A stretch of 64,000 nt of DNA from Lyngbya sp. CCAP 1446/10 (lineage in GTDB: Bacteria; Cyanobacteriota; Cyanobacteriia; Cyanobacteriales; Microcoleaceae), in contig NZ_JAIGNI010000041.1 in assembly GCF_026130175.1 (NCBI RefSeq), positions 1 to 64,000 on the forward strand. The letters are read 5' to 3'. The notes under the pieces are model-generated. The model saw only the letters and a program-made list of their open reading frames with translations, did not search any database and was not told the origin of the DNA. Shown piece after piece: positions 15,556 through 44,048 of this stretch. Made by a program: the position numbers and the translations under genes. Within the stretch, counting starts at the first letter, position 1. The number at the start of each line of letters is the position of its first letter.

Positions 15556-18500
15556 ATGAAAACTCAAAATTTTACATTGATAGGTTATCAAACGCTCGAT
15601 CGCATTTACTCAGGAACTCGCACCCTAGTTTATCGCGGAACTCGCCAATGCGACAAACAGCCCGTTGCCATCAAAGTCTTGCGGACTGAGTATCCCAACT
15701 TCAGCGAGCTCGTGCAATTTCGCAATCAGTACACGATCGCCAAAAACCTCAATTTACCCGGAATCATCGAAACCTACAGCTTGGAAGCCTACCAAAACAG
15801 CTATGCGCTGGTAATGGAAGACTTCGGTGGAATCTCTCTCCATGCCTGGACGGAACAAGGGGAAACTCCGCCCGATTTAAGCGATTTTTTGCAAGTGGCG
15901 ATCGACATCAGCAATACATTAGATATACTCTCCCGCCACCGGATCATTCACAAAGACATTAAACCCGCCAATATTTTAATTAATCCCGAAACAAAACAAG
16001 TCAAACTGATTGACTTTAGCATCGCATCTTTGCTGCCGAGGGAAACTCAAACCCTGATGAATCCTAACGTACTCGAAGGCACATTAGGCTATTTGTCTCC
16101 CGAACAAACTGGCCGGATGAATCGCGGCATTGACTACCGAACTGATTTTTATTCTTTGGGCGTGACTTTTTACGAATTGCTGGCGGGACAATTGCCGTTT
16201 CAATCCCACGATCCGATGGAATTGGTACACTCTCATATTGCCAAGCAACCGCCATCACTGCATGAAATCAATCCGCAAATCCCGCCGGTACTCTCGGAGA
16301 TTGTCAGCAAATTGATGGCGAAAAATGCTGAAGACCGCTATCAGAGCGCTTTGGGGCTAAAATTTGACTTAGAATTGTGTTTGCGTCAACTAGAAGAAAA
16401 TGGGAAAATAGAGAGTTTTGAAATAGGTCAGAGAGATTTGTGCGATCGGTTTATCATACCAGAGAAACTCTACGGTCGCGAAACCGAAGTAGAAACCCTA
16501 CTCGAAGCCTTTGAGCGCGTCAGTAGCGGCACAACTGAAATGATGCTAGTAGCTGGTTTTTCCGGCATTGGAAAAACTGCAATTGTGAATGAAGTTCATA
16601 AACCAATTGTGCGGCAAAATGGCTACTTTATCAAAGGCAAGTTTGACCAATTCAATCGCAATATTCCCTTTAGTGCCTTTGTCCAAGCATTTCGCGGTTT
16701 AATGGCGCAATTGTTGAGTGAAAGCGATGCACACTTGCAACTCTGGAAAAGTCAGATTCTTGCAGCCGTGGGGGATAGTGGTCAAGTCATCATTGAGGTG
16801 ATTCCAGAACTCGAACGGGTGATTGGTTCGCAACCTCCGGCTACTGAATTGTCGGGAGCCGCCGCCCAGAATCGATTTAATCTCCTATTCCAAAAGTTTA
16901 TTCAAGTCTTCACCACCCCAGAGCATCCCTTGGTGATGTTTCTGGATGATTTGCAGTGGGCGGATTCGGCTTCGCTGAAATTGATCCAAGTCTTGATGGC
17001 AGAATCGACTATGGGTTATCTGCTGTTGATGGGAGCCTATCGAGATAATGAAGTGTTTGCGGCGCATCCGTTGATGTTGACCCTAGGTACGGTCAGCAAA
17101 GCGGGGGCAACGGTGAATACGATCGCCCTGCAACCCCTAAGCCAGATTAGTTTGAATCAGTTGCTCGCCGATACCCTCCACTGTACGGAGCGGTTGGCAC
17201 AGCCTTTGACTGACCTGCTGATGCAGAAAACTCAGGGCAATCCGTTCTTTGCCACCCAGTTTCTCAAAGCCTTGCATCAAGAAAAGCTGATTGCCTTTGA
17301 TGCTGATGCGGGGTATTGGCAGTGCGATATTGTCCGAGTTCAAGCTGCGGCTTTGACGGATGATGTGGTCGAATTTATGGCGTTGCAGTTGCAAAAACTG
17401 CCGGACACCACGCAAACCATCTTGAAATTAGCAGCTTGTATTGGGGCACAGTTTGATTTACAAACGTTGGCGATCGTCTCGGAGCAGTCCCAAACTGAAG
17501 TGGCAACTGCTCTCTGGAAAGCGTTGCAAGAAGGATTAATTCTGCCCCAAAGTGAAATTTACAAGTTCTATTTAGAAAAAATGGAGCTAGATGAGGCTGT
17601 AAACCATGAACTATTGAATTATAAATTCCTGCACGATCGTGTTCAACAAGCTGCTTATTCTTTAATTCCCCATGACGAAAAACAGACGGCTCATTACCAA
17701 ATCGGTCAACTGCTGCTGCAACAGGTTTCCTTAGAAGCCAGAGAAGAACGCATTTTTGAAATCGTCAATCAATTAAACTATGGCACTGCTTTAATTACTC
17801 AACAAACAGAACGAGAAGAATTAGCTCAACTCAACCTAATCACCTGTCGCAAAGCCAAAAGTGCCACCGCCTATCAAGCAGGGCGTGAATATGCCAGCAT
17901 TGGATTATCACTGCTTGGCAAAAATGCTTGGCAGCAACAATATGAAATGACTCTATCATTCCATAATGATGCAGCGGAACTGGCAATGCTCTGCGGTGAT
18001 TTTGAGGCAATGGAAAAGTTGATTGAGACAGTTATTGCTCAGACTCACTCTTTACTAGAAAAAATTAATGTTTACCGCATTAAAATTCAAGCAAATGTGA
18101 CCCAAATTAAACTGAGTGAAGCTATTGTCTTCGGACTCCAAATCCTGCAACAGTTGGGCGTAAAAATAACCGAATCACCCACACTAAGCGATATTCAACA
18201 GTCAATGCAAGAGATTAGTGATTTGATTGGCGACAGAGAAATTGCAGATTTTGTGAATCTACCAGTGATGAGCGATCCAAACAAACTTGCAATTATCGAG
18301 ATTGCCACCAGCCTTCTGACTCCAGCTTACATCTCTGGCTCTCTCTTGTTCCCATTATTGAATTGTTTCTCAGTCAAATTATCCTTGCAGTATGGAAACA
18401 TATCTGTTTCAGCTCATAACTATGGTTCCTATAGCATGGTTCTCTGTAATCTCTTACAAGATGTAGATTCAGCAGTGAAATTTGGTCAGTTGGCCTTGAA

Positions 18501-20973
18501 TGTTGTCTCAAAACATAGTTATAAAACGACTAGACCTTTAGTATTAATGTTGCTGGGATCGTTTATCCTCCACCGCAAGTCTCATATCAAAGAAACATTA
18601 CCACTCTTGAGAGAAGGCTACACAACTGGACTAGAAGTCGGAATCTTGGAACACGTCGGAAATAGTGGAAATAGTTTCTGTCTGAATGCTTTTTGGTGCG
18701 GTCAGCCCCTTGCTAATGTTGAGCAGGATACGCACACCTACTACGATGGTTTGGTGCAAGTTAATGAATTGAGAACAGCCAATTATTGCCGGATCTATTG
18801 GCAATCTGTTTTAAATTTACTGGGAGTTGGGTCGCATCCCACCATTTTGTCTGGGTCAGCCCTCCAAGAGACGGAATTTCTGCCCCTGCTGGAGTCTGCC
18901 AATGACCTATATGGGTTGTATCACTTCTATTTGTATAAGCTGACTCTTGGCTTTTTGTTTGGAGAAATTGAACTAGCAAACAATAATGCTCTTGAGTGCC
19001 GAAATTATTTAATGGGTGCTGGGTCAGCAGTCAGCGAACCAGCCTTTTATTTCTATGATTCTTTGATTACTCTGGCACAGTTAATTCAACCTTCAGGTGA
19101 GGTTGCACCAGTATTAGAGCGGGTGGCACAAAACCAAACCCAGTTACGAGATAATTGGGCGCACCATGCTCCCATGAATCACCAGCATAAGGTTGATTTA
19201 GTAGAAGCTGAAAAATGCCGGGTTTTAGGACAGAAAGCAGAAGCAATTGAGTTATACGACAAGGCTATTTCCGGAGCCAAAGCCAACGAATACATCCAAG
19301 AAGAAGCTCTGGCTAACGAACTAGCAGCTAAATTCTACCGAACTTGGGGCAAAGAAAAAATAGCTCAGGTTTATATGCAGGATGCCTATTACTGCTATGC
19401 CCGATGGGGGGCAAAAGCCAAAGTTGCAGACCTAGAAACCCGCTATCCCGACTTGCTGCGCCCCATATTGCAGACCCAACAAAATCGTTATGCACTCAGC
19501 GAAACCCGCCTCCAAACTATCAATAAATCCTCAGTCTTATATCAAACCATCCAAACAACTCAATCTAGCAGTAGCAGTATTTCCGAAGCCCTCGATTTCG
19601 AGACTATTCTCAAAGCCTCCCAAGCTTTATCAAGTGAAATAGAATTAAAAAAATTGTTGGCGGCACTGATGTCTGTGGCGATCGAAAATGCTGGGGCAAC
19701 AAAAGCAGCTCTGCTGTTGCTTAAGGATGGGAATCTCGCAATTGAAGCTGTAGCCTCCCTCAAGGAAAATGTCATCTTAATGTCTGTACCGCTGTCAGCC
19801 AGCGCAGAGGTTCCTACTGCTGTGGTTAATTATGTTAAGCGCACTTTGAAAACTGTTGTTTTGGATAATGCAGCAGCACAAAACGATTTTATTGCAGATC
19901 CGTATTTGATGGAAAAAAAGCCCAAAAGTGTGCTGTGCGCCCCGATTTTGAATCAGGGTAAATTCATCGGGTTACTATATCTAGAAAATAACTTGACAAT
20001 TGGTGCATTTACTGAAGATCGCACTGAAGTCATCCAACTGTTGTGCGCCCAAGCGGCGATCTCGCTAGAAAATGCCCGCTTGTACCAACAATCCCAAGCT
20101 TACGCCCAAGAATTAGAGCGATCGCTCTTGGACTTACAACAAGCCCAGTTACAAATAGTGCAAAGTGAAAAAATGTCGGCTTTGGGCAATCTAGTCGCGG
20201 GTGTCGCCCACGAAATCAACAATCCTGTCGGCTTTATTGCGGGTAATTTGACAGAAGCAAATGCTGGCTTTAACGATTTAATTAGCCACTTAAAATTATA
20301 TCAAGAAAAATTTCCCAATCCCGGCGCAGAAATTGAACGAGATGCTGAGGATATTGATTTGGAGTATGCCTTAGAAGATTTGCCCAAGATGCTGTCGTCG
20401 ATGAAAGTGGGGTGCGATCGCATTCGCGGCATTAGCACCAGCCTCCGCACCTTCTCCAGAGCCGATAAAGACTACAAAGTTCCCTTTAATATTCATGAAG
20501 GGATTGAGAGTACGATCTTAATTTTGAAACATCGGCTGAAAGCTAACGAACATCGTCCTGCGATCGAAGTCGTCACAGACTACGGGAATCTCCCCAAAAT
20601 CGAATGCTTTCCCGGTCAACTGAACCAAGTATTTATGAATTTGCTGGCAAATGCGATCGATGCCCTAGATGAGTCAAGTCAAGGCCGCAGTTTCGAGGAA
20701 ATTGAAGCGAATCCCAACTTTATCACGGTGCGGATCGGTTTGGAGGGCGATCGCCACATCAAAATTACAATTGCCGATAACGGTGCGGGGATGAGTGACT
20801 CTGTGAAACAGCGGATTTTTGACCATTTATTTACTACAAAAGCTGTGGGTAAAGGTACTGGGTTGGGATTAGCGATCGTCCGCCAGATTGTAGTCGAAAC
20901 CCACGGCGGTTCAATTCACGTCAATTCAACACCGGGAGCGGGAACAGAATTTATCATCAGCTTACCAACTTAA
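15556..20973 (+). CDS. Tandem hybrid kinase 1: STPK-ATPase-GAF-histidine kinase
   Basis: The 1805-residue HstK-type protein combines several modules. They are a Ser/Thr kinase (1-270; VAIK Lys, HKDIKPANIL catalytic loop, DFS for DFG); a STAND/AAA-like ATPase opening LYGRE, with Walker A GFSGIGKTA (about 334) and Walker B LVMFLDDLQWAD (about 458); a long helical region (about 700-1330); a GAF domain (about 1370-1520); and a histidine kinase with His1552 in GVAHEINNP, the N-box QLNQVFMNLLANAIDAL and GKGTGLGLA. It has no PAS and no receiver. The ATG at 15556 matches its paralogs; the in-frame TTG at 15490 adds an unconserved leader. It is first of five, 80 nt before the next. Probably cytosolic; signal and partner unknown. 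Confidence 0.95.
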   Translation: MKTQNFTLIGYQTLDRIYSGTRTLVYRGTRQCDKQPVAIKVLRTEYPNFSELVQFRNQYTIAKNLNLPGIIETYSLEAYQNSYALVMEDFGGISLHAWTEQGETPPDLSDFLQVAIDISNTLDILSRHRIIHKDIKPANILINPETKQVKLIDFSIASLLPRETQTLMNPNVLEGTLGYLSPEQTGRMNRGIDYRTDFYSLGVTFYELLAGQLPFQSHDPMELVHSHIAKQPPSLHEINPQIPPVLSEIVSKLMAKNAEDRYQSALGLKFDLELCLRQLEENGKIESFEIGQRDLCDRFIIPEKLYGRETEVETLLEAFERVSSGTTEMMLVAGFSGIGKTAIVNEVHKPIVRQNGYFIKGKFDQFNRNIPFSAFVQAFRGLMAQLLSESDAHLQLWKSQILAAVGDSGQVIIEVIPELERVIGSQPPATELSGAAAQNRFNLLFQKFIQVFTTPEHPLVMFLDDLQWADSASLKLIQVLMAESTMGYLLLMGAYRDNEVFAAHPLMLTLGTVSKAGATVNTIALQPLSQISLNQLLADTLHCTERLAQPLTDLLMQKTQGNPFFATQFLKALHQEKLIAFDADAGYWQCDIVRVQAAALTDDVVEFMALQLQKLPDTTQTILKLAACIGAQFDLQTLAIVSEQSQTEVATALWKALQEGLILPQSEIYKFYLEKMELDEAVNHELLNYKFLHDRVQQAAYSLIPHDEKQTAHYQIGQLLLQQVSLEAREERIFEIVNQLNYGTALITQQTEREELAQLNLITCRKAKSATAYQAGREYASIGLSLLGKNAWQQQYEMTLSFHNDAAELAMLCGDFEAMEKLIETVIAQTHSLLEKINVYRIKIQANVTQIKLSEAIVFGLQILQQLGVKITESPTLSDIQQSMQEISDLIGDREIADFVNLPVMSDPNKLAIIEIATSLLTPAYISGSLLFPLLNCFSVKLSLQYGNISVSAHNYGSYSMVLCNLLQDVDSAVKFGQLALNVVSKHSYKTTRPLVLMLLGSFILHRKSHIKETLPLLREGYTTGLEVGILEHVGNSGNSFCLNAFWCGQPLANVEQDTHTYYDGLVQVNELRTANYCRIYWQSVLNLLGVGSHPTILSGSALQETEFLPLLESANDLYGLYHFYLYKLTLGFLFGEIELANNNALECRNYLMGAGSAVSEPAFYFYDSLITLAQLIQPSGEVAPVLERVAQNQTQLRDNWAHHAPMNHQHKVDLVEAEKCRVLGQKAEAIELYDKAISGAKANEYIQEEALANELAAKFYRTWGKEKIAQVYMQDAYYCYARWGAKAKVADLETRYPDLLRPILQTQQNRYALSETRLQTINKSSVLYQTIQTTQSSSSSISEALDFETILKASQALSSEIELKKLLAALMSVAIENAGATKAALLLLKDGNLAIEAVASLKENVILMSVPLSASAEVPTAVVNYVKRTLKTVVLDNAAAQNDFIADPYLMEKKPKSVLCAPILNQGKFIGLLYLENNLTIGAFTEDRTEVIQLLCAQAAISLENARLYQQSQAYAQELERSLLDLQQAQLQIVQSEKMSALGNLVAGVAHEINNPVGFIAGNLTEANAGFNDLISHLKLYQEKFPNPGAEIERDAEDIDLEYALEDLPKMLSSMKVGCDRIRGISTSLRTFSRADKDYKVPFNIHEGIESTILILKHRLKANEHRPAIEVVTDYGNLPKIECFPGQLNQVFMNLLANAIDALDESSQGRSFEEIEANPNFITVRIGLEGDRHIKITIADNGAGMSDSVKQRIFDHLFTTKAVGKGTGLGLAIVRQIVVETHGGSIHVNSTPGAGTEFIISLPT

Positions 20974-21053
20974 GTAGAGCGAAACAGTTAATTTTTTTCC
21001 TGACTTTCATACTCATTAACAAACCACTCACTAATTTTATGGAAAGAATAGCC

Positions 21054-24000
21054 ATGAATAACTCCCACCAAAATCAGAACCAAAGCACAAACAGTCAAAT
21101 TTTCAACTATCAAATTATTCAAACAATTTATGACGGGACTCGCACCTTAGTTTATCAAGCCATCCGTACCGATGACCAACTACCGGTTATTATCAAACTA
21201 CTGAAAAACGAGTATCCCACCTTCAGCGAACTCGTGCAATTTCGCAATCAATATACCATTGCCAAACACCTCAACTTCCCCGGAATTATCCAAACCTACA
21301 GCTTGGAAGCCTACCAAAACAGCTATGCGCTAGTAATGGAAGACTTCGGTGGAATCTCTCTAAAACAATGGGTCGAACAAGGGGAAACTCCGCCCGATTT
21401 AAGCGATTTTTTGCAAGTGGCGATCGACATCAGCAACATCTTAGATATACTCGGACGCCACCGGATAATTCACAAAGACATTAAACCAGCCAATATTTTA
21501 ATCAATCCCGAAACCAAACAAGTTAAACTAATCGACTTTAGTATTGCATCACTATTATCAAAAGAAACCCAAACTCTGCTCAATTTCCATGTGTTAGAAG
21601 GAACACTTGCTTACATTTCTCCCGAACAAACCGGAAGAATGAACAGAGGAATTGACTACAGGACTGACTTTTATTCTTTAGGTATTACCTTCTACGAATT
21701 ACTGACAAACGGGTTACCATTTCAATCAAACGATCCGATGGAGTTAGTGCATTGCCATATCGCCAAAGCAGCACCATTAGTAAATGCTATTAACCCACAA
21801 ATTCCATCTGTACTCTCAGAAATTGTCAGCAAATTGATGGCAAAAAATGCGGAAGACCGCTATCAGAGTGCGTTAGGGCTGAAAACCGATCTAGAAAAAT
21901 GTTTAGATCGGCTTAAAGAAACTGGGGAAATTCAGAGTTTTGAAATTGCACAAAGGGATCTGTGCGATCGCTTCCTAATTCCCGAAAAACTTTACGGACG
22001 AGAAGCTGAAGTATCAACACTGCTGCAAGCATTCGATCGAGTCAGTCTTGGCGCAACAGAAATGATGCTGGTAGCTGGTTTTTCTGGGATTGGTAAAACA
22101 GCAGTAGTCAACGAAGTGCATAAACCGATCGTGCGCCAACGCGGTTATTTTATCAAAGGCAAATATGACCAATTTCAGCGTAACATTCCCTTTAGTGCCT
22201 TCGTGCAAGCCTTTCGGGATTTAATGGGGCAATTGCTGAGTGAAAGCGATGCCCAAATCAAACAATGGAAAACTAAGATTTTAGAAGCCCTCGGTGACAG
22301 CGGACAAGTCATTATTGAAGTCGTTCCCGAAGTAGAAATAATTATCGGTCAACAGCCACCTGCTCCAGAATTAGCAGGAACAGCAGCAAAAAATAGATTT
22401 AATTTATTGTTTCAAAAATTCACCCAAGTCTTTACCAGCGTAGAACATCCCTTAGTGATATTTTTAGATGATTTGCAATGGGCAGATTTGGCATCACTGA
22501 ACTTAATGCAGCTTTTAATGGCTGATACAAGTCATCTTTTATTAATTGGTGCGTACCGTGATAATGAAGTCAACCCAGTACATCCATTAATCTTGGCTTT
22601 GAGCGAAATCAAAAAAACACAATCGACTATTAATACGATTGTTTTAGCACCCTTGACTCAAGTAATAGTAAATCAATTAGTTAGTGAAACGCTGAAATGT
22701 ACAAGAATTTTTGCAGGTACTCTTTCACAATTAATATATCAAAAAACTAAAGGAAATCCGTTTTTTGCAACTCAACTTCTCAAAGCATTACATCAAGAAA
22801 ATTTCATTAAATTTGATTTTGATGCGGGCTGCTGGCAATGCGACCTTGCTCAAGTGAATCAGCAACTGCTTACAGATGATGTTGTAACTTTTATGGCATT
22901 GCAGTTACAAAAATTGCCACCATCGACTCAAAATGTATTAAAGTTAGCTGCTTGTATTGGTAATCAGTTTGATTTAGCTATTTTGGCAATTGTTTCGGAA
23001 CATTCAGAAATAGAAACTGCTGCTGAGTTGTGGAAAGCATTAGAAGAAGGATTGATTTTACCGAGTAGTGATGTTTATAAATTTTATCAACAAGAGTCAT
23101 TAGTCAATAGTCATCTTGCCCTGAACGAAGTCGAAGGAGGGTCATCTGTAGACAAACAACAACAAATGACCAATGACGGAGTACAAATGACAGCTACCTA
23201 CAAATTTTTACATGACCGAGTACAACAAGCGGCTTATTCTTTGATTCCCGACTATCAAAAACAAGCAACTCATCTCAAAATTGGACAGTTACTTAGGCAA
23301 AACTTATCAGAAATAGAACAAGAGGAAAAACTGTTTGATATTGTCGAGCATTTGAACAAAGGAATTAAGTTAATTACTGAACCGAGAGAACAAGAAATAT
23401 TAGCTCAACTAAATTTTAAAGCTGGAGGTAAGGCGATAAATTCTACAGCATACGCAGCAGCAAGGACATATTTCCAAATAGGAATCGAGCTACTACAAAC
23501 AAACTGTTGGCACAGCCAGTATGAATTGACTTTGAACCTCCATATTGCGGCGGCTGAAGCTAGTTATTTGAATAGTGATTTTGAGGGCATGGAACAGATA
23601 ACAACAGTCGTGTTGCGATCGGCTAAAACGATTTTAGATAAAATAAAAATTTATCAAATTCAAATTGCAGCGCAAGTTTTACAAAGTAATGTGGTGGAGG
23701 CGATCGCTATTGGCAGACAAGCTTTAGAGCAATTGGGGGTTGAACTGCCTACAGAACCCGATCAATCCAAGACTAGCAGAATGCTACAAAGCCTTGCCAC
23801 CCAACTCGAAGGTAGACAAATTGAAGACTTGAGCGATCTGCCATTAATGACTGATCCTAACGCTCAGGCTGCAATGGAATTGATGGCAATGTTGTTTTCA
23901 CCAATTATTCAAGGAATGCCCGGTTTATTGCCATTGCTAAGTTCGATGATGGTGAATTTATCTCTTCGATCGGGCAATACCGTGTCATCAATAACTGGGT

Positions 24001-26981: not shown

Positions 26982-27052
26982 ACAGATTAACTTTTCCCTG
27001 ACATTCAGACTCATTCAACAAACCCATCATTAACTTTCCGCCAATAATAACA

Positions 27053-32503: not shown

Positions 32504-32574
32504 ACAGATTAACTTTTCCCTGACATTCAGACTCATTCAACAAACCCATCATTAACTTTCCGCCAATAATAACA

Positions 32575-35500
32575 ATGAATAACTCCTCCACAAACCACAA
32601 CCTAACGACAACCTATCAAATTCCCAACTATCAAATTGTCGAAACCGTTTATTCAGGGAGTCGAACCGTAGTATATCGGGCCATCCGTACAAAAGATCGA
32701 CTACCTGTCGTCATTAAACTCCTGAAAAATGAGTATCCAACTTTCAGCGAACTGGTGCAGTTTCGCAACCAGTATACCATTTCCAAAAACCTTCATCAAC
32801 CTGGAATTATCCAGACCTATAGCCTGGAGCCCTATCAAAATGGCTATGCCTTAGTCATGGAAGACTTTGGGGGGATTTCTCTGAAAGAATGGGCAATGAG
32901 CGGTAATCTACAATCTTTACACGAGTTTTTAACTTTAGCGATCGCACTGTGCAACACCTTAGATCTATTGTACCGGGAGCGGATTATACATAAAGACATC
33001 AAACCCGCCAATATTCTTATTAATCCAGAAACCAAACAAGTCAAATTAATTGACTTTAGTATAGCATCTTTACTCCCACGAGAAACACAGACACTTGTCA
33101 ATCCTAATGTTTTAGAAGGGACACTAGCTTATATTTCTCCAGAACAAACAGGGAGAATGAACCGGGGAATCGACTACCGCACAGATTTCTATTCTTTGGG
33201 TGTAACTTTCTACGAGTTACTCACTGGAGTTTTACCATTTCCATCAAATGAACCGATGGAATTGGTGCATTGTCATCTTGCCAAAGCAGCGCCTTTAGTA
33301 CATGAAATTAACCCAGAAATCCCGCCTGTATTCTCAGAAATAGTCAGCAAATTGATGGCAAAAAATGCCGAAGATAGATATCAGAGTGCATTGGGACTAA
33401 AGTTTGATTTAGAAAATTGTTTAACTCAAATTCAAGAAACTGGTTCGATTGATAGCTTTGATGTTGGGACGAGGGATCTGTGCGATCGCTTCCTCATCCC
33501 CGACAAACTCTATGGAAGAGAAGCCGAAGTATCAACCATACTGCAAGCATTTGAGCGTGTTAGCGAAGGTGCAACAGAAATGATGCTGGTAGCTGGGTTT
33601 TCCGGTATTGGAAAAACCGCAGTTATCAACGAAGTTCATAAACCCATTGTCCGGCAACGCGGTTATTTTATCAAAGGCAAATTTGACCAATTCAACCGCA
33701 ATATTCCCTTCTCTGCCTTTGTGCAAGTATTCCGCGATTTAATGTGGCAGTTGCTTAGTGAAAGCGATCGCGAATTACACATCTGGAAAACTCAGATTCT
33801 TCAGGCGCTAGGGGACAATGGGCAGGTAATGATTGAGGTGATTCCCGAATTAGAACGCATCATCGGTAAGCAAGCACCCGCTACAGAACTATCAGGAACT
33901 GCGGCACAAAATAGATTTAATTTACTGTTCCAAAAGTTCATTCAAGTCTTCACAACTAAAGAACATCCATTGGTGATGTTTTTGGATGATTTACAGTGGG
34001 CTGATTCTGCCTCACTCAATTTGATACAACTTTTGATGAATGAGTCGGAAAGTCGCTATTTATTAACGATCGGGGCTTACCGAGATAATGAAGTTTCACC
34101 AGCGCATCCCTTAATGTTGACCTTAGATGCGATCGCTAAAGCCAACGCCACCATCAATACTATTACTTTGGGTTCTCTCAGCCAGGGTAGCTTAAACCAG
34201 CTAGTCGCTGACACCCTCAACTGCCATATTTTGAGCGCGCAAGCCTTGACAGAACTGATTGCCCTCAAAACAAAAGGCAATCCCTTTTTTGCCACCCAGT
34301 TTCTCAAAGCATTGTATCAAGATGGATTGATTCAGTTCACCCCCCCAACCCCCCCTTACCAAGGGGGGGCTACGGGGGGGTGGCAGTGCGATCTGGCAGA
34401 GATTCGCACTGTTGCCATATCCGATGATGTCGTGGAATTTATGGCATCACAGTTACAAAAACTGCCCTCTGACACCCAAGATATTCTCAAATTAGCCGCT
34501 TGTATTGGCGCACAGTTCGATTTGAATACTCTGGCGATCGTCTCCCAACAATCGGAATCTGATGCCGCCGTCGCCCTTTGGAAAGCCTTACAGGAAGGGC
34601 TGATTATTCCCCAAAGTGAAATTTATAAGTTCTATATGGGCGAATTGGATACAACCCAAAACACACAAACTGAAACGCTCAATTATAAGTTCCTCCACGA
34701 TCGCGTTCAACAAGCTGCTTATTCCCTGATTCCCGATGACCAAAAACAAATTACTCATCTGCAAATCGGGCAACTTTTGCTACAAGATGCGTCACCGAGT
34801 ACAAAGGAAGAGAGACTGTTTGATATTGTCAATCATCTGAATGTTGGCAAATATCTGATGATTCAACCGTCGGAACGGACAGAATTAGCACAGATGAATT
34901 TGAACGCTGGAGGTAAGGCGAAAAATTCCACAGCCTATGCCGCCGCAAGGGGTTATTTCAAAACAGGGATTGAGCTATTACAACCAGACTGCTGGAAAAC
35001 AGAGTACGAATTAGCCTTCAACCTCCATGTGGCAGCAACGGAAGCCAGCTATTTGAATGGTGATTTTGACGGCATGGAACATCTTGCTGCATTAGTATTG
35101 CAGCAGGCGCAGACAATTTTTGACAAAGTGAAAATTTACGAAATTCAAATCGCTGCACAAACATCCCAAAACCAAATATTAGAAGCGATCGCAGTCGGAA
35201 GAAACGCCCTAGCCCAATTAGGAGTAGAACTCGCCACGGAAGTAGACGAAGCCAAGATTGGTAAAGCCTTACAATATCTTAGCAACCAACTCCAGGGTAG
35301 AGAAATTGGCGAGTTGATTGATTTACCTGTGATGAGCGATCCCGTTGCTCTTGCTGCGATGCAACTGTTAGGTACCTTATTTCCCCCTATAATCCAAGGA
35401 ATGCCCGGATTATTGCCTCTGTTGAGTGCGGCGATGGTGAGGTTGTCTATCCAGTTTGGTAATGCACCCACTTCGACAGTTGGTTATGTGCTTCATGGAC

Positions 35501-38007
35501 TGGTACTGTGCGCTTTTTTGGGCGAAATTGAAACAGGCTATGAGTTTGGCTCCTTAGCGCTCTCATTGGTAGAGCAATTTAATGTTCAGGCAACAAAGTC
35601 CATCACCCTCAATCTGTTTGCGTCTTTCATCCAACATCACCAGCAAGCGCTCAGGGCAACGATACCGATGCTAAAAGAAAGCTACAGCACAGGTATGGAG
35701 ACAGGTAGTTTTCTCTATGCTGGTTATGGGATCTCCTGCTATGCCTTTACTGCATTTTACTCAGGTGTAGACCTAGAGACGTTGGGCTATGAATTAATTG
35801 CTTACAGTGCTAACCTCGCCCAAGTGAAACAGAATTCATCGCAGATTTTTGTAGACTTGGTGCGGCAAACGGTGGAGCATTTGAGGGAAACGGTGAACCA
35901 ACCCGATCGCTTAATTGGGACTAGCTACGATGAAGCGGTGATGCTGCCGAAGCACCACCAGAATAATGATTTTATGGGCATCGCCCTTGCCTACAGCTAC
36001 AAACTGCTGCTTGCCTACTACTTTGGCAATTATCAGGCTGCCCTGGAGTACATCGCCGCAATCAAGCCCTGTTTGATAGCAATATCGGGATTGGCTCACG
36101 TTCCTATTTTCCATTTTTATGCCGCCCTAACGTACGTAGCACTCTGCCCCACCCAGCCAGAACCCCAGCAAGCCGAAATACTTGAGCGAGCAGCAAGCCA
36201 TGAAACAATCCTACATCGCTGGGCGCAGAATGCCCCGATGAATTACCAACATAAGGTTGATTTGGTAGCAGCCGAAAAATGTCGGGTGTTAGGCAAAAAT
36301 TATGAAGCAGGGGATTGCTACGATCGCGCCATTTTTGGAGCAAAAGCCAACGAATATATTAACGAAGAAGCTTTAGCAAACGAACTAGCAGCCAAATTCT
36401 ATCTCAACTGGGGTAAAGAGAAAGTTGCCGCAGGTTATATGCAGGAAGCCTATTACTGCTATGTTCGCTGGGGAGCTAAGGGCAAAACTAATGACCTGGA
36501 AACTCGGTATCCAGACTTGCTCCGCCCAATTTTACAGCAGCCAGACTCCTCGGTGACAATGTTAAGCACACTATCAACGATCGCATCTCCCGGCTATTCC
36601 CTTCACTCCAACACCCGCAAAAGTTCTAGCAGTTCTAGCATCAATACAACCCTTGATTTTGCTGCCATTCTCAAAGCCTCCCAAGCACTTGCGAGGACGA
36701 TTCAGTTAGAGGATCTGCTCTACCAACTCACCCAAATTATTCTGCAAAATTCCGGTGGCGATCGCTGTGCGTTAATCTTACCTTCGGAGAATCAAGTTTG
36801 GGAAGTACGGGCGATCGCCACACCCACCGAAACTCTACTCTACTCCGAACCCCTGGAAAACAACCCCAATCTCCCCGTCAAACTGATTCAATATGTCAAA
36901 AACACTCACAAAGTCGTGGTGATTGACGATCTAGAAACCGATTTACCCGTAATTGATAATTATTTGACACTACAGCAGCCTAAAAGTGTGCTGTGTTTAC
37001 CCGTTCTCAATCAAGGAAATTTGGTCGGTATTTTGTATCTCAACAATCGCTTAACCAGTGGTGTGTTTACCAGCGATCGCATCATTATTCTCGACTTTCT
37101 CTGCTCCCAAGTGGCTATTTCTCTAGAAAATGCCCGGCTTTACAATCAAGTCAAGCAGACCCTCACCGACCTGCAAAATGCTCAATTACAAATAGTCCAA
37201 AGTGAAAAAATGTCAGCCTTGGGGAACTTAGTTGCCGGTGTCGCTCACGAAATCAACAATCCCGTCGGCTGTATTATTGGCAACGTTGGTGCTGTCCAAG
37301 ATTCCATCAATGATCTATTTGGGCTGATTGACCTCTATCAAGAGGAACTCCCGCAACCTAGCCCCACCATTGAAGAAGAATTAGAGACAATTGACCTAGA
37401 ATATTTACGCTCTGATTTACCCAAGTTAATCAGAGCGATGAAAGATGGGGGCGATCGCATCACCAGCATCAGCAAGAGTCTCCGCACTTTCTCCCGTGCC
37501 GATAGCGACCAAAAACAAAAGTTCAACATCCATGAAGGGATTGATAGCACCATCTTGATTTTACGCCATCGCCTCAAGGCCAATGATACTCGTCCCGCGA
37601 TTGAAGTTGTCACCAACTACGGGAATATTCCGGCTATCGAATGCTTCCCCGGACAATTAAATCAGGTGTTTATGAATATTATAGCTAATGCGATCGATGC
37701 GTTAGATGAATCAAATATAGGTCGGACTTTTGCCGAAATCCAGGCTAATCATAACTGCATTTTTATTACAAGCTTCGTAGAAAATAATCTCGTTAAAATC
37801 ACTATTGTTGACAATGGAAAAGGAATGAATGAAGAGGTAAAACAAAAAATTTTCGAGCATTTGTTTACGACTAAAGCTGTTGGTAAAGGAACAGGATTAG
37901 GATTGGCGATCGCGCGTCAAATTGTGCTGGATAAACACGGCGGTTCAATTCGCGTCAATTCAACACCGGGAGCGGGAACAGAATTTATCATCACTTTACC
38001 AACTTAA
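32575..38007 (+). CDS. Tandem hybrid kinase 4: STPK-ATPase-GAF-histidine kinase
   Basis: The 1810-residue mosaic paralog has HKDIKPANIL at about 139, DFS, Walker A GFSGIGKTA at about 341, Walker B LVMFLDDLQWAD at about 466, GAF at about 1370-1520 and His1558. It follows gene three closely from the start through GAF and the phosphotransfer helix. Its last about 40 residues (GSIRVNSTPGAGTEFIITLPT) and its 3' spacer instead match gene one. A CCCCCCC/GGGGGGG palindrome just before WQCD adds a Pro/Gly-rich peptide. The upstream 71-nt spacer is a near-copy of the one before gene three, and the downstream 80-nt spacer a near-copy of the one after gene one. Confidence 0.95.
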   Translation: MNNSSTNHNLTTTYQIPNYQIVETVYSGSRTVVYRAIRTKDRLPVVIKLLKNEYPTFSELVQFRNQYTISKNLHQPGIIQTYSLEPYQNGYALVMEDFGGISLKEWAMSGNLQSLHEFLTLAIALCNTLDLLYRERIIHKDIKPANILINPETKQVKLIDFSIASLLPRETQTLVNPNVLEGTLAYISPEQTGRMNRGIDYRTDFYSLGVTFYELLTGVLPFPSNEPMELVHCHLAKAAPLVHEINPEIPPVFSEIVSKLMAKNAEDRYQSALGLKFDLENCLTQIQETGSIDSFDVGTRDLCDRFLIPDKLYGREAEVSTILQAFERVSEGATEMMLVAGFSGIGKTAVINEVHKPIVRQRGYFIKGKFDQFNRNIPFSAFVQVFRDLMWQLLSESDRELHIWKTQILQALGDNGQVMIEVIPELERIIGKQAPATELSGTAAQNRFNLLFQKFIQVFTTKEHPLVMFLDDLQWADSASLNLIQLLMNESESRYLLTIGAYRDNEVSPAHPLMLTLDAIAKANATINTITLGSLSQGSLNQLVADTLNCHILSAQALTELIALKTKGNPFFATQFLKALYQDGLIQFTPPTPPYQGGATGGWQCDLAEIRTVAISDDVVEFMASQLQKLPSDTQDILKLAACIGAQFDLNTLAIVSQQSESDAAVALWKALQEGLIIPQSEIYKFYMGELDTTQNTQTETLNYKFLHDRVQQAAYSLIPDDQKQITHLQIGQLLLQDASPSTKEERLFDIVNHLNVGKYLMIQPSERTELAQMNLNAGGKAKNSTAYAAARGYFKTGIELLQPDCWKTEYELAFNLHVAATEASYLNGDFDGMEHLAALVLQQAQTIFDKVKIYEIQIAAQTSQNQILEAIAVGRNALAQLGVELATEVDEAKIGKALQYLSNQLQGREIGELIDLPVMSDPVALAAMQLLGTLFPPIIQGMPGLLPLLSAAMVRLSIQFGNAPTSTVGYVLHGLVLCAFLGEIETGYEFGSLALSLVEQFNVQATKSITLNLFASFIQHHQQALRATIPMLKESYSTGMETGSFLYAGYGISCYAFTAFYSGVDLETLGYELIAYSANLAQVKQNSSQIFVDLVRQTVEHLRETVNQPDRLIGTSYDEAVMLPKHHQNNDFMGIALAYSYKLLLAYYFGNYQAALEYIAAIKPCLIAISGLAHVPIFHFYAALTYVALCPTQPEPQQAEILERAASHETILHRWAQNAPMNYQHKVDLVAAEKCRVLGKNYEAGDCYDRAIFGAKANEYINEEALANELAAKFYLNWGKEKVAAGYMQEAYYCYVRWGAKGKTNDLETRYPDLLRPILQQPDSSVTMLSTLSTIASPGYSLHSNTRKSSSSSSINTTLDFAAILKASQALARTIQLEDLLYQLTQIILQNSGGDRCALILPSENQVWEVRAIATPTETLLYSEPLENNPNLPVKLIQYVKNTHKVVVIDDLETDLPVIDNYLTLQQPKSVLCLPVLNQGNLVGILYLNNRLTSGVFTSDRIIILDFLCSQVAISLENARLYNQVKQTLTDLQNAQLQIVQSEKMSALGNLVAGVAHEINNPVGCIIGNVGAVQDSINDLFGLIDLYQEELPQPSPTIEEELETIDLEYLRSDLPKLIRAMKDGGDRITSISKSLRTFSRADSDQKQKFNIHEGIDSTILILRHRLKANDTRPAIEVVTNYGNIPAIECFPGQLNQVFMNIIANAIDALDESNIGRTFAEIQANHNCIFITSFVENNLVKITIVDNGKGMNEEVKQKIFEHLFTTKAVGKGTGLGLAIARQIVLDKHGGSIRVNSTPGAGTEFIITLPT
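34339..34381. repeat. CCCCC/GGGGG palindromic repeat inside kinase 4
   Basis: CCCCCCC (34340-34346), CCCCCCCTT, ACC, AAGGGGGGG and GGGGGGG (34374-34380) form nested arms. The encoded peptide TPPTPPYQGGATG replaces the DRNLGH-type linker of gene three directly before the conserved WQCD. It is the same family as 7306-7386. Confidence 0.88.
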
Positions 38008-38087
38008 GTAGAGCGAAACAGTTAATTTTTTTCCTCACCTTCAGACTTATTAACAAACCACTCACTAATTTTACGGAAAGAATAGCC

Positions 38088-41000
38088 ATGAATAACTCCC
38101 ACCCAAACCACAACCAAAGCACAAACAGTCAAATTTTCAACTATCAAATTATCCAAACAATTTATGACGGAACTCGCACCTTAGTTTATCAAGCCATCCG
38201 TACCGATGACCAACTACCTGTGGTTATTAAACTACTGAAAAACGAGTATCCCACTTTTAGCGAACTGGTGCAGTTTCGCAATCAATACACTATTGCTAAA
38301 AACCTTAACTCACCCGGAATTATCCAAACCTGTAGCCTAGAACCATATCAAAATGGCTATGCCTTAGTGATGGAAGATTTTGGCGGAATTTCTCTATCTG
38401 CTTATCTCCAAGTAGCAACCGATCAAAACCAACTTGCTAAATCTTTATCTTTAGCAGAATTTCTCAACCTGGGTATACAACTGACAGATATTCTAAACTA
38501 TCTCTCTCAAAATCGAGTCATTCACAAAGATATTAAACCCGCTAATATTCTGATTAATCCCGACACCAAACAAATTAAACTAATTGACTTTAGTATTTCT
38601 TCCCTGCTGCCACGAGAAACCCAAGAAATCCAGAATCTTAATGTCTTAGAAGGAACATTAGCCTATCTCTCTCCAGAACAAACCGGACGGATGAATCGAG
38701 GTATTGACTATCGTAGCGACTTTTATGCCCTTGGTGTCACCTTTTATCAATTATTAACAGGACAGTTACCATTTATCTCTGACGATGCAATGGAATTGGT
38801 GCATTGTCATCTAGCAAAACAGTCAATACCCATCCATAAAATTAATAGCAAAATTCCCATAATTTTGTCACAAATGATAAGTAAATTGATGGCAAAAAAT
38901 GCGGAACACCGCTATCAGAGTGCATTAGGATTAAAACATGATTTAGAGATTTGTCTAGCTCAACTAGAAAAAACTGGTAACATTGACACCTTTAAATTAG
39001 GACTGGGAGATATTACAGACCGATTCCTCATACCAGAAAAACTCTACGGTAGAAAAATTGAAGTTGATAATCTATTAGCTGCGTTTGAACGAGTCGCTAA
39101 CCCCCCTGAGTCGCCCCTTAATAAGGGGGGACATAGGGGGGTAGAAATGATGCTAGTGGCAGGGTTTTCTGGGATTGGTAAAACGGCGGTAGTAAATGAA
39201 GTTCACAAGCCAATTGTCAGACAACGGGGCTATTTCATCAAAGGCAAATATGACCAATTTCAGCGTAATATTCCCTTTTCAGCCTTTCTGCAAGCCTTCC
39301 GCGATTTGATGGGGCAATTGTTATCAGAATCAGATACTCAGTTACAAATATGGAAAAGCAAGATTTTGACAGCAGTTGGCGATAACGGACAAGTCTTGAT
39401 TGATGTAATTCCTGAGTTAGAACGCATCATTGGTAAACAGCAAATAGCACCAGAACTATCGGGAAATGCAGCCCAAAATCGCTTCAATATGCTGATGCAA
39501 AAATTTGTGCAAGTATTTACACAAGCCGAACATCCTTTAGTAATGTTTTTAGATGATTTGCAGTGGGTTGATTCGGCCTCATTGAAATTGTTGCAACTGT
39601 TGATGGAAGATACGGGACATTTATTGGTGTTAGGTGCTTATCGGGATAACGAAGTTTCTCCTACTCATCCATTTATTTTGACGGTGGATGATATTCAAAA
39701 AACGGGGGCAACAGTGAATATAATTACCTTAGCTCCCTTGCAAAAAGATGACATTAATCAATTAATTTCAGATACTCTTAGTTGCGAACCAGAGATTTCC
39801 AAACCTCTGAAAAAACTGATATATCAAAAAACTCAAGGTAATCCATTTTTTGCTACGCAATTCCTCAAGGCGTTACATGACGATGGGCTGATTACTTTTG
39901 ACCCCCCTCAGTCCCCCACCCCCTCCGGCTTCCCCTTGTCAAGGGGGAGGATCAAAGAGGGAAGACAAGGGGGGTGGCAGTGTGATATTGCACAAATCAA
40001 AGCCTTAGCACTCACCGATGATGTAGTAGAGTTTATGGCGTTGCAATTGCAGAAATTGCCGATAGAAACTCAGGATATTCTTAAATTAGCCGCTTGTATT
40101 GGAGCGCAGTTTGATTTAGCTACTTTGGCAATTGTCAGTGAAAAGTCGCCAGAAGTTGCTGCTACTGCTTTATGGAAATCTTTGCAAGAGGGCTTGATTA
40201 TTCCGACTACAGAAGCTTATAAGTTTTTTACTCAATCTGATAATGAGTTGGTTTATGGTGCAGCGGCTAATCCGACTTATCGGTTTTTGCATGATCGCGT
40301 CCAACAAGCTGCTTATTCGCTAATTCCTGAAGATCAAAAACAAGCAACTCATCTCAAAATCGGACAATTACTCCTACAAAATTCCTCAGAGATAGATCCA
40401 GAGGGAAAACTGTTTGATATTGTCGGGCATTTGAATTTAGGAATTGAGTCGATCGAGAAACCGAGTGAACGAGAAGCATTAGCTCAACTAAACTTAAAAG
40501 CTGGACGTAAAGCCAGAAGTTCTACCGCATACACAGCAGCAAGGATATATCTGCAAATAGGGATTGATTTACTCACAATCAATTGCTGGGTTGATCAGTA
40601 TGAATTAACTCTAAATCTCTATGTTGCATCTGCCGAAGCTGCCTATTTGAATGCTGACTTTGATGGCATGGAAAAGATGGCAGAACAGGTGTTACAAAAA
40701 GCTCAGACGATTTTAGATAAAGTTAAAATTTACGAAATTTCACTCGGCGCCCAGACAGCCCAAAGCCAGATGTTAGAAGCGATCGCAATAGGAAGAGATG
40801 CACTGGAGCAATTGGGTGTTAAACTCCCCACCGAAACTGATGAAACCAAAATTGGCAAAGCACTACAAAACCTTGCCAGCCAACTCCAGGGTAGACGGAT
40901 TGAAGAATTGGTTGACCTACCAATGATGAGTGATGCGACAACTCAGGCAGCAATACAACTATTGGGAACTTTATTTCCCCCCGTTTTTCTGGGAATGCCG

Positions 41001-44000
41001 GGATTGCTACCCGTGCTTAGCTCCAGGATGGTGAGTTTATCGATCGAATTTGGGAATGCACCCGCATCGACTGTGGGATACGCAATTCACGGAATGGTAT
41101 TGTGTGCCTTTTTGGGAGATGTGGAAACGGGCTATAGCTTTGGTAAATTGGCGATGAATGTGCTCAATCGATTCAATGTACGCGAACTAAATGCCACAAT
41201 TCCCGCTTTTTTTGGGAGCTTTATTCAGCATCACCAAGAACCTATAAGGGCAACGATACCGACGCTGAAAGGTAGCTATACGGCTGCTATAGAAACAGGA
41301 AATTTTTTACAATCTGGCTATAGCATACTCAATTACCTAGAATCCAACCTTTTCGGAGGGGTGGAACTGGAGAATTGGGAGACCGAAATAACAACTTATA
41401 GTGCTGTTATGGCACAGGCGAAACAATATTCGGCTCAGGCTTATTTTGATATGATGCAGCAGACTGTTAATAACTTGAGGAAAGTCTGTATTCTATCGGA
41501 TTGCTTAATCGGCCCGACCTACGATGAAACGGTGATGCTTCCTAAGCATCATCAGAATAATGAACTCACGGCGATCGCTAAAGCCTATGTTTATAAACTA
41601 TTACTTGCCTATTCTTTTGGCAACAATACGTCTGCCTTAGACTACATTGCCAAAACGCAGCCATATTTGATGGCAATATCCGGATTGATTCAAGTTCCAA
41701 TTTTTCATTTCTATGCAGCCTTGACGCACCTAGCAATTTTCCCCACAAAGCCAGAGCAAGAGCCATCCGAAATACTCGCCCTGGTGGAAACTCATCAAAC
41801 TACTCTGCACCAGTGGGCGAAAAATGCTCCTATGAATTATTTGCATAAATGGTATTTAGTTGAAGCAGAAAAATATCGGATTTTGGGTAATAAAGCCGAT
41901 GCAATAGAGTTGTACGATCACGCCATATCCCTAGCTCAAGAAAATCAGTTTCTCAACGAAGAAGGACTGGCCAATGAACTGACCGCTAAGTTTTATCTGA
42001 ATTGGGGTAAAGAAAAGGTCGCTCAAGCCTACATGATTGAGGCGTATTACTGTTATGCCCGATGGGGAGCTAAAGCCAAAGTTATTTATTTAGAAAAACG
42101 TTATCCCCAACTCCTCGATCCTCTCCTTCAGCAATCCCGATTCTCTACCTCTTTCAAGGAAAATATTACGCGAGGAACGATCGCTTCCAGTAACACTTCT
42201 AGCAGTGCCTATGAAGTTCTAGATTTGGCAACTATGTTCAAGGCTTCTCAAGTCATTTCTGGGGAGATGGAACTTGATAAACTATTGACTACTCTATTAC
42301 AAATAGTGGTCACAAATGCTGGAGCAAGTAAGTGCGTCTTACTGCTAAAACAAGATACTGAGTTACAGGTAGCAGCCTTTATGGAAGAGGGACAAGAACC
42401 GCAGATCTTACCACCGATGCCGCTAGAATCAAGTCAGGATGTGGCGATCGCTTTGGTGAATACTGTTAAGCGGAGTTTGAAACCTCTGGTACTGGTTGAT
42501 GCGAGGGTAAATGCTGAGTTTTGTGGCGATCGATATATTGCACAGCACCAGCCTAAAAGTGTCCTTTGCAGTCCAATTCTCAATCAAGGTAAGTTGATTG
42601 GAATTTTATACTTGGAAAATAACCTAACGGTTGGGGCATTTACAAGCGATCGCGTGGAACTGCTCAATTTGCTATGCGCTCAAGCTGGTATTTCCCTAGA
42701 AAATGCGCGACTCTATGAAAATTCTCAAAAATATACACAACAGTTAGCACAATCTCTAGCAAAATTGCAGGCGAGTGAAATCCGTTTCCAAAATTTGGCA
42801 AATAATATTCCTGGTACGGTGTACCAATTACGTCTGGGGGCTGACGGTTCAATTTCAACACCTTATGTCAGCTCTGGCTGTTTCGACTTATATGAGTTAG
42901 CACCAGAGTTAGTGATGGCAGGTGTACATAGCCTTAACGCTATGCATCATCCTGATGATGACCTAACTATTACACAAGTAATGATCGCCTCTGGCCAAAA
43001 TCTAACACCATTTGAGCAAGAATGGCGTATTATTGTGCCTTCAGGAATCGTAAAATGGGTTTGCTGTGCTGCTAGGCCAGCGCGTCAAGCAGATGGTGCA
43101 ATCTTATGGGATGGAGTGGTAATTGATATTAGCGATCGCAAGCGAGCAGAACTTGCTGTGCAGCAAAAAACGGAAGATTTAGCACAAGCCTTAACCGAGT
43201 TACAAAACGCCCAATTACAAATAGTCCAAAGTGAAAAAATGTCTGCACTGGGTAATCTGATGGCTGGGGTAGCTCACGAAATGAATAATCCTTTGGGTTT
43301 TATTTCTGCTAGTCTCCACCAAGCTAAACCGACCTTTAATGACATTGTTGAACACTTAGAACTCTACCAAGAAACGCTGACAAATCCACCTGAAAACATT
43401 ATCGCTCATGCCGAAGAAATTGACTTGAATTATAGCTTGGAAGACTTCCCAAAAGTCATTGATGCCATGTCTATCGCGTGCGACAGGTTAAGTAAGATCA
43501 GCACTTCACTCCGAACATTCTCTCGTGCAGATCGCGATCATAAAGTTCTTTTCAACATTCATGAAGGCATTGATAGCACGATTTTGATTCTCAAACATCG
43601 TCTGAAAGCCAATGATCAACGTCCCGCTATTGAAGTGATTACCAACTATGGCAATTTACCTCAAATCGAGTGTTTCCCGGGACAACTAAATCAGGTGTTT
43701 ATGAATATCTTGGCTAATGCCATTGACGCATTAGATGAGTCAAATGTTGGACGAAGTTTTCAGTCAATTAAAGCCAATCTCAACCGAATTACTGTTACCA
43801 CTTCAACTGCCGACAATTTCGTGAAAATTACCATTTCTGATAATGGTAATGGAATGAGTGAAGAGCTAAAACAAAAGATATTTGACCATTTATTTACCAC
43901 GAAGGCGGTAGGAAAAGGTACTGGGTTGGGGTTGGCGATCGCCCGCCAGATTGTAGTCGAAACCCACGGCGGCACAATTGAGGTGAATTCCGATCGGGGA

Positions 44001-44048
44001 AGTGGCACTGAATTTGCGATATTTTTACCTGTTAGCGAACAAAATTAG
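38088..44048 (+). CDS. Tandem hybrid kinase 5: STPK-ATPase-GAF-PAS-histidine kinase
   Basis: This 1986-residue protein is the most diverged of the set. Its kinase domain has a longer hinge (LQVATDQNQLAKSLSLAEF), HKDIKPANIL at about 146 and DFS. Walker A lies at about 359, and Walker B reads LVMFLDDLQWVD. GAF is at about 1385-1540 and a PAS at about 1560-1688 (NNIPGTVYQLRLG to DISDRKRAE), unlike the PAS of gene two. His1730 sits in the variant GVAHEMNNPLGF. Two palindromic repeats are inserted in frame, before EMMLVAGFSG and before WQCD. The first 60 residues and the leader match gene two. The ATG has GGAAAG upstream. Last of the cluster; no receiver-domain gene follows. Confidence 0.95.
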   Translation: MNNSHPNHNQSTNSQIFNYQIIQTIYDGTRTLVYQAIRTDDQLPVVIKLLKNEYPTFSELVQFRNQYTIAKNLNSPGIIQTCSLEPYQNGYALVMEDFGGISLSAYLQVATDQNQLAKSLSLAEFLNLGIQLTDILNYLSQNRVIHKDIKPANILINPDTKQIKLIDFSISSLLPRETQEIQNLNVLEGTLAYLSPEQTGRMNRGIDYRSDFYALGVTFYQLLTGQLPFISDDAMELVHCHLAKQSIPIHKINSKIPIILSQMISKLMAKNAEHRYQSALGLKHDLEICLAQLEKTGNIDTFKLGLGDITDRFLIPEKLYGRKIEVDNLLAAFERVANPPESPLNKGGHRGVEMMLVAGFSGIGKTAVVNEVHKPIVRQRGYFIKGKYDQFQRNIPFSAFLQAFRDLMGQLLSESDTQLQIWKSKILTAVGDNGQVLIDVIPELERIIGKQQIAPELSGNAAQNRFNMLMQKFVQVFTQAEHPLVMFLDDLQWVDSASLKLLQLLMEDTGHLLVLGAYRDNEVSPTHPFILTVDDIQKTGATVNIITLAPLQKDDINQLISDTLSCEPEISKPLKKLIYQKTQGNPFFATQFLKALHDDGLITFDPPQSPTPSGFPLSRGRIKEGRQGGWQCDIAQIKALALTDDVVEFMALQLQKLPIETQDILKLAACIGAQFDLATLAIVSEKSPEVAATALWKSLQEGLIIPTTEAYKFFTQSDNELVYGAAANPTYRFLHDRVQQAAYSLIPEDQKQATHLKIGQLLLQNSSEIDPEGKLFDIVGHLNLGIESIEKPSEREALAQLNLKAGRKARSSTAYTAARIYLQIGIDLLTINCWVDQYELTLNLYVASAEAAYLNADFDGMEKMAEQVLQKAQTILDKVKIYEISLGAQTAQSQMLEAIAIGRDALEQLGVKLPTETDETKIGKALQNLASQLQGRRIEELVDLPMMSDATTQAAIQLLGTLFPPVFLGMPGLLPVLSSRMVSLSIEFGNAPASTVGYAIHGMVLCAFLGDVETGYSFGKLAMNVLNRFNVRELNATIPAFFGSFIQHHQEPIRATIPTLKGSYTAAIETGNFLQSGYSILNYLESNLFGGVELENWETEITTYSAVMAQAKQYSAQAYFDMMQQTVNNLRKVCILSDCLIGPTYDETVMLPKHHQNNELTAIAKAYVYKLLLAYSFGNNTSALDYIAKTQPYLMAISGLIQVPIFHFYAALTHLAIFPTKPEQEPSEILALVETHQTTLHQWAKNAPMNYLHKWYLVEAEKYRILGNKADAIELYDHAISLAQENQFLNEEGLANELTAKFYLNWGKEKVAQAYMIEAYYCYARWGAKAKVIYLEKRYPQLLDPLLQQSRFSTSFKENITRGTIASSNTSSSAYEVLDLATMFKASQVISGEMELDKLLTTLLQIVVTNAGASKCVLLLKQDTELQVAAFMEEGQEPQILPPMPLESSQDVAIALVNTVKRSLKPLVLVDARVNAEFCGDRYIAQHQPKSVLCSPILNQGKLIGILYLENNLTVGAFTSDRVELLNLLCAQAGISLENARLYENSQKYTQQLAQSLAKLQASEIRFQNLANNIPGTVYQLRLGADGSISTPYVSSGCFDLYELAPELVMAGVHSLNAMHHPDDDLTITQVMIASGQNLTPFEQEWRIIVPSGIVKWVCCAARPARQADGAILWDGVVIDISDRKRAELAVQQKTEDLAQALTELQNAQLQIVQSEKMSALGNLMAGVAHEMNNPLGFISASLHQAKPTFNDIVEHLELYQETLTNPPENIIAHAEEIDLNYSLEDFPKVIDAMSIACDRLSKISTSLRTFSRADRDHKVLFNIHEGIDSTILILKHRLKANDQRPAIEVITNYGNLPQIECFPGQLNQVFMNILANAIDALDESNVGRSFQSIKANLNRITVTTSTADNFVKITISDNGNGMSEELKQKIFDHLFTTKAVGKGTGLGLAIARQIVVETHGGTIEVNSDRGSGTEFAIFLPVSEQN
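39101..39141. repeat. CCCCC/GGGGG palindromic repeat inside kinase 5 (first)
   Basis: CCCCCCT (39101-39107) pairs with AGGGGGG (39135-39141), and CCCCTT (39114-39119) with AAGGGG (39123-39128). It encodes NPPESPLNKGGHRG directly before the EMMLVAGFSGIGKT strand of the ATPase, a position where the other paralogs have a few residues such as SEGAT. Confidence 0.88.
39901..39975. repeat. Palindromic repeat inside kinase 5 (second)
   Basis: A CCCCCCTCAGTCCCCCACCCCC arm (only partly conserved) and TCCCCTTGTCAAGGGGGA are followed by GACAAGGGGGGT. The encoded Pro/Gly/Arg-rich segment of about 24 residues lies at the same protein position, just before WQCD, as the insertion in kinase 4. Confidence 0.8.

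Follow-up and report, generated by a model that had tools for sequence, protein, structure and literature searches.

Five consecutive HstK-type dual kinase genes in Lyngbya sp. CCAP 1446/10 and the probable exchange of sensor cassettes between conserved kinase ends

How five very large and similar kinase genes came to stand in a row, and what distinguishes one from the next, is the question raised by a 64,000 nt stretch of the draft genome of Lyngbya sp. CCAP 1446/10 (assembly GCF_026130175.1, contig NZ_JAIGNI010000041.1, positions 1 to 64,000 of the forward strand; the whole stretch is referred to below as the window). The open reading frames reveal five intact genes of the HstK type, here named g1 to g5, which fill positions 15556–44048 head to tail on the + strand. 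The explanation that we prefer, and to which we give a probability of roughly 60%, is that four HstK genes were recombined in behind g1 and that the proteins are switches resembling the STAND and NLR proteins, with sensor cassettes exchanged under constant outputs.

The first gene, g1 (15556–20973, 1805 codons, with a possible alternative in-frame TTG start at 15490), is by position orthologous to the one HstK gene found here in congeners. It is followed by the mosaic g2 (21054–26981, 1975 codons), the close duplicates g3 (27053–32503, 1816 codons) and g4 (32575–38007, 1810 codons), and g5 (38088–44048, 1986 codons), whose TPR and GAF blocks are nearest to array genes at the cyd locus of the congeners; an in-frame ATG at 21039 would extend g2 to 1980 codons and the start at 21054 fits the start context of g5. 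All five proteins gave Pfam rows for Pkinase, AAA_16, GAF and HATPase_c, in the order Ser/Thr kinase, STAND-type ATPase, TPR-like solenoid, GAF, PAS (rows in g2 and g5 only) and histidine kinase (HK). HisKA was above the cut-off in g2, g3 and g4, below it in g5 and unlisted for g1, and the H-box GVAHE is present in all five; no Pfam row for a receiver (REC) domain was found in any of them. An earlier sequence-only reading of this DNA had described five intact tandem genes of 1805–1986 codons with gaps of 71–80 nt, a common plan of Ser/Thr and His kinase modules around a STAND-like switch as in HstK-type hybrids, PAS domains in copies 2 and 5 only and no receiver, and all of this agrees with the open frames, the spacer lengths, the Pfam rows, the predicted structure and its Foldseek match. 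Since the proteins fit the definition of cbSTKIII (HstK) dual kinases in the 2007 survey (PMC2176072), having an N-terminal Ser/Thr kinase with catalytic motifs, at least one GAF domain between the kinases and a C-terminal histidine kinase, they are assigned to that family. Pairwise protein identity is 90% for g3/g4 and 58–68% for every other pair, a likeness which over 1800 aligned residues is far beyond chance.

To compare genes at one fixed position, 13 positional orthologues, namely g1 and those of 12 congeners, were chosen by synteny (gyrA 95–97% identical where measured). Their kinase blocks are 82–94% identical and their HK blocks 79–98%, whereas the TPR block (g1 residues 700–1290) ranges from 31 to 96% and falls below 60% in 65 of 78 pairs, or in 56 of 66 when G014, the least certain row, is left out. 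In g1 the exchanged sensor block is situated at 17629–19300 on the + strand (limits approximate), between the conserved LHDRVQQAAYSL and EEALANEL. Along g1 the identity drops at about residue 675 and returns at about 1225–1250, adjoining conserved stretches that could act as crossover anchors.

Trees were quickly made under LG+G4, with the identity matrix already known, from the 13 orthologues and 33 other family members picked to include near neighbours. The orthologues form one clade in the kinase tree (SH-aLRT 95) and in the HK tree (99.4), also without G014 (12 rows; 94.3 and 99.9, respectively), while for the TPR middle (residues 800–1200) a single clade is rejected, with a log-likelihood lower by 1387 and an approximately unbiased test p-value (p-AU) of 2.5e-8 for 13 rows and 4.2e-16 without G014. 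For the GAF block a single clade is not rejected (p-AU 0.116; 0.244 without G014). Identities and trees together show that, among close relatives, the recognition part varies and the rest of the frame is conserved. Several of the TPR types are common to other loci and genera, that of G008 being shared with Nostoc carneum and N. linckia, that of G001 with Tychonema and that of g1 with Nostoc sp. NMS4 and Argonema. Judged from these alignments, the sensor block and the ends at the g1 locus have separate histories, which suggests that recombination between genes, the cause that we infer for the discordance, swaps the sensing middle and leaves the two enzyme ends fixed. Such exchange at one locus across a genus exceeds the domain shuffling reported in 2007, and no description of sensor exchange at a fixed locus was found in the literature on HstK, arrays and sensor swapping, where coverage of subscription journals was small.

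A simpler history would be plain tandem duplication and drift, the copies having arisen in place from g1, with the sensor block as the least constrained and hence fast-evolving part. It would account for the close pair g3/g4 with its identical spacer, for the middle being the most divergent part of the family (26–46% mean identity, g3 residues 801–1250) and for the ratio of nonsynonymous to synonymous substitution rates between g3 and g4, which is raised to 0.48 in the sensor middle compared with 0.13–0.19 elsewhere (Fisher p 7e-6, codon counts) and stays below 1. It does not agree with the recurrence of the orthologues' sensor types at other loci and in other genera, with the rejection of a single clade or with the nearest neighbours of g2 and g5, which differ by domain; plain duplication and drift is already disfavoured and we consider it improbable. 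For any given copy the nearest neighbour shifts along the length of the protein: the head of g2 is 92–95% like that of g5 and its histidine kinase 85–89% like those of g3/g4, and the GAF domain of g3 is 90% identical to that of a Nostoc KVJ20 gene, though gyrA of the two genomes is only 77% identical. The earlier suggestion of a family diversifying by duplication covers part of this history: g3/g4 are the only close duplicates, and the remaining copies are by alignment mosaics, with a sensor block probably exchanged by recombination. Positive selection on the g3/g4 sensor was also considered and was rejected, the ratio of 0.48 not being above 1.

Several in-frame inserts were observed in these genes. 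G/C-rich palindromic ones lie at 34333–34386 in g4 and at 39090–39152 and 39894–39980 in g5, and the one in g4 shares its alignment place, before WQCD, with the second of the two in g5; a core of these palindromes, CCCCCTYNNNAAGGGGG, has 205 copies in the source genome (reversed control 0). Other inserts, missing in the other copies, are found at 23088–23204 (g2) and 27758–27838 (g3).

The origin of the additional genes was approached by reading the gyrA–psbO locus in 12 congeners, nine of them informative. All nine carry one HstK gene, the g1 orthologue, at this site, with the order HstK, RTX, psbO in G019, G020, G012, G004, G018 and G017, with HstK, RTX and a contig end in G010, and with HstK, an HK-REC gene, a REC-HK gene and then RTX and psbO in G001 and G008. 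G021 has one HstK gene and both partner genes (HK-REC and REC-HK), beyond which its context differs, the contig of G005 stops behind HstK, and G014 gave a short upstream match alone with no window gene after it. As the upstream flank of g1 matches that of the congeners and the sequence right after g5 matches that after the single HstK gene of G010 (91% over 256 columns), four genes appear to have been added after the head of g1 and ahead of the former 3' flank. A derivation of the 3' end of g5 from the relatives' REC-HK gene was examined and discarded, the end being 70–72% identical to that gene (G008, G001) and 73–76% to the HstK ends of seven congeners.

At the cyd locus five examined congeners (G019, G005, G020, G012 and G013) have an array of 2–5 HstK genes, flanked on one side by cytochrome bd genes (subunit I by Pfam) and on the other by a histidine kinase gene of ~740–770 codons on the opposite strand. 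The same site in the source genome (contig C158) contains no full-length HstK gene and measures ~0.4 kb, compared with ~29 kb in G005. From these locus comparisons the four extra HstK genes are peculiar to the source genome among the congeners compared, and they may represent a relocated cyd array or a separate gain.

The row itself is real but not exceptional, contrary to how striking it had first seemed, since five consecutive kinase-plus-HK frames on one strand are also present in Calothrix brevissima NIES-22 and five HstK genes in a row in G005, at another locus than gyrA–psbO and with spacers of 66–71 nt that can be aligned with those of the window. Nostoc sp. KVJ20 has four consecutive kinase-plus-HK frames and Nostoc linckia z4 three, and an HstK match at E ≤1e-250 was obtained in 36 of 39 genomes searched, the source genome included and with at most 12 matches taken per genome; the family is a known one, and comparable rows occur in other genomes. 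In the source genome (6.75 Mb, 171 contigs) there are 17 HstK frames of at least 1785 codons without a stop, g1–g5 among them, besides one frame with a stop and HstK fragments. A draft of 171 contigs and two identical 71 nt spacers could raise the thought that the assembly has multiplied a smaller number of copies. This is very unlikely, because the copies are 58–68% identical save g3/g4 at 90%, with differing inserts, and because arrays are present in single-contig genomes, the row of five in the chromosome of Calothrix brevissima NIES-22 included.

The spacers between the genes, all read on the + strand, are of two kinds: g1–g2 (20974–21053, 80 nt if g2 starts at 21054) resembles g4–g5 (38008–38087, 80 nt), and g2–g3 (26982–27052, 71 nt) is identical to g3–g4 (32504–32574, 71 nt). 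As they are short, co-expression is plausible and the five genes form a candidate operon. In a scan of positions 15000–34999 promoter-like and terminator-like sites were as numerous as in shuffles, and none was found on the + strand of the first three spacers. A CRP-like palindrome upstream of g1 (15426–15441) was dismissed, the window having 2 matches where 2.2 are expected by chance, and Rfam (gathering cut-off) and tRNA scans of the window gave no matches. In the array spacers of Nostoc and Calothrix (L080, L081, L092, L116, L117, L119, L120 and L129) a common motif like GGGAATACTA appeared at a similar distance to the next start, possibly a shared control element.

The catalytic parts were studied in 153 different proteins of full length encoded at the retrieved loci, a set gathered with a window protein and hence biased to close relatives. 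The VAIK Lys is conserved in 152 (one gap), HKD in 152 and DF in all 153; PEQTGRMNR is invariant (153/153), Walker A GK is likewise found in every protein and the H-box His in 145, with 4 gaps. The middle of the proteins agrees with a STAND core followed by a TPR sensor, with AAA_16 rows and Walker A and B motifs, then the TPR part seen in the model and by Foldseek, where the best match of the predicted structure was 6mfv, a STAND protein of known structure that has a TPR sensor; a profile of the middle part gave no matches against PDB sequences.

Ahead of the GAF domain a Ser/Thr-rich tract was identified on the + strand of each gene (g1, 19555–19584; g2, 25110–25142; g3, 31109–31132; g4, 36622–36645; g5, 42186–42212). 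The 14 residues preceding an invariant Asp near the GAF start hold a median of 8 Ser/Thr (range 3–11) in the 153 proteins and at least five in 141, the Ser/Thr content of the whole protein being 11.4%; runs of four or more fall within 25 residues there in 119 proteins and anywhere else in the protein in 30. Of seven homologues lacking the kinase, the alignment gives 4 Ser/Thr and no run in five, which come from two lineages. The conservation agrees with use of this segment by the Ser/Thr kinase and makes the tract a candidate link between both kinases.

These features can be joined into a proposed mechanism. Four further HstK genes would have come in behind g1 through recombination among family members, giving a probable five-gene operon. 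In each protein we infer that the TPR superhelix binds a ligand, upon which the ATPase core would leave its closed state and oligomerise, and several subunits would thereby bring their Ser/Thr kinases (N-terminal) and histidine kinases (C-terminal) together. The Ser/Thr kinase may then phosphorylate the conserved tract before GAF, in cis or in trans, or an outside substrate, and thereby tune the histidine kinase, which would pass its phosphate on to a receiver specified by a gene elsewhere. Homologous recombination would use the conserved ends as anchors, and by it the sensor cassette would be swapped between paralogues and species with the outputs kept constant.

A candidate for the receiver partner is the REC-HK protein. 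On contig C94 of the source genome (L207:5715–10738) what is left of a decayed HstK gene, a head of 144 codons that is 75% identical to g1, is followed by Cache-HAMP-HK-REC and REC-HK genes, and the HK of the REC-HK protein is 69% identical to that of g4. The REC-HK gene also follows the g1 orthologue of G001 and G008, and it was found in two further loci (L089, L093).

Several observations weigh against this reading. A single clade is rejected for the AAA block too, if less strongly (p-AU 0.0025; 0.014 without G014), the support for the kinase clade is only middling (SH-aLRT 95 with 13 rows and 94 with 12 in quick LG+G4 trees), and the program issued a long-branch warning for the TPR tree. 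The Foldseek TM-scores against 6mfv are low (0.27/0.38). Two of the seven kinase-less homologues, seemingly truncated HstK genes, keep 5–6 Ser/Thr, and a flexible Ser/Thr-rich linker would look much alike and need not be phosphorylated. A receiver gene lies downstream of only 7 of the 77 HstK genes with enough flank and the partnership is therefore not general; with 10 of 82 upstream (80 named loci, receiver model built from four sequences), a general receiver neighbour was rejected. Moreover, DFG reads DFS in 149 of the 153 proteins, so that Ser/Thr kinase activity is only predicted. Together with the Ser that replaces Ala before PE in 141 proteins, the altered motif would suit a pseudokinase scaffold in a protein that acts as histidine kinase only; the strong conservation of the catalytic residues given above argues against this, and the scaffold is regarded as unlikely, if a little less so than plain duplication and drift.

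Should the exchange of sensors be accepted, it may still be ordinary retuning to abiotic signals such as iron, nitrogen or redox and not recognition of other organisms, an alternative that we place slightly below even odds. The Anabaena genes alr0709/alr0710 respond to iron and NtcA (PMC2176072), FurC and NtcA bind at alr0709 (PMC12282138) and the congeners' array adjoins cytochrome bd genes; on the other hand, it is not obvious why abiotic retuning should require so many sensor types at a single locus of one genus. A bolder reading, which we hold to be less likely than not, is that the HstK genes of filamentous cyanobacteria constitute a recombination-driven receptor system. TPR cassettes from a common library would move among conserved kinase frames, both in arrays and at fixed loci, so that the target of recognition (a phage product, a metabolite or a molecule of a neighbour) would keep changing under a constant double-kinase output. 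No report of an HstK ligand was found in the literature searched, with small coverage of subscription journals. Sensor exchange gives the family a testable receptor-like reading: if the sensor is an exchanged cassette under a fixed output, the natural variants of one locus are matched pairs for ligand finding and the family would be a bacterial counterpart of the diversifying NLR receptors that has kinases for its output, and the Ser/Thr tract makes cross-talk between the two kinases directly testable.

Elsewhere in the window tandem repeats were seen at 45500–45692, 48841–48916, 2971–3093 and 58961–59058, comprising 21-bp units within the RTX-like gene, an exact 23-bp unit and several 7-bp arrays, and an OrfB/IS605-type transposase-like gene at 53514–54764 (Pfam rows OrfB_IS605 and Cas12f1-like_TNB).

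Among known systems, STAND proteins with a TPR sensor come close, MalT being a well-studied member. The solved protein 6mfv and the predicted structure have in common an AAA-type core followed by a TPR superhelix (STAND proteins are treated in PMC6468293 and PMC4381067). The output of g1–g5 differs, consisting of two kinase types and not of a DNA-binding or other domain. Fungal hybrid kinases carry a receiver, unlike g1–g5, and those considered here are probably of group X. Likened by description, they combine a domain related to Ser/Thr kinases with GAF and a histidine kinase in a single protein (PMC4965123). With diversifying conflict systems and NLR-like receptors the five proteins share a variable recognition part in an otherwise conserved frame (as outlined in PMC7159879), but of the 33–36 PADLOC rows per protein those listed concern the kinase domain of defence kinases and are generic. 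Papers on HstK proteins go back to 2001, according to the reference list of PMC2176072, and that survey reports domain shuffling and describes alr0709/alr0710 as adjacent, co-transcribed and iron-responsive; a 2025 study adds binding of FurC and NtcA at alr0709 (PMC12282138). Alr2258 and the Alr0709/Alr0710 pair of Anabaena and Nostoc, likened here by description, have the same N-terminal Ser/Thr kinase, GAF and C-terminal histidine kinase, and what sets the present locus apart from them is the row of five where congeners have one and the exchange of the sensor at a fixed locus.

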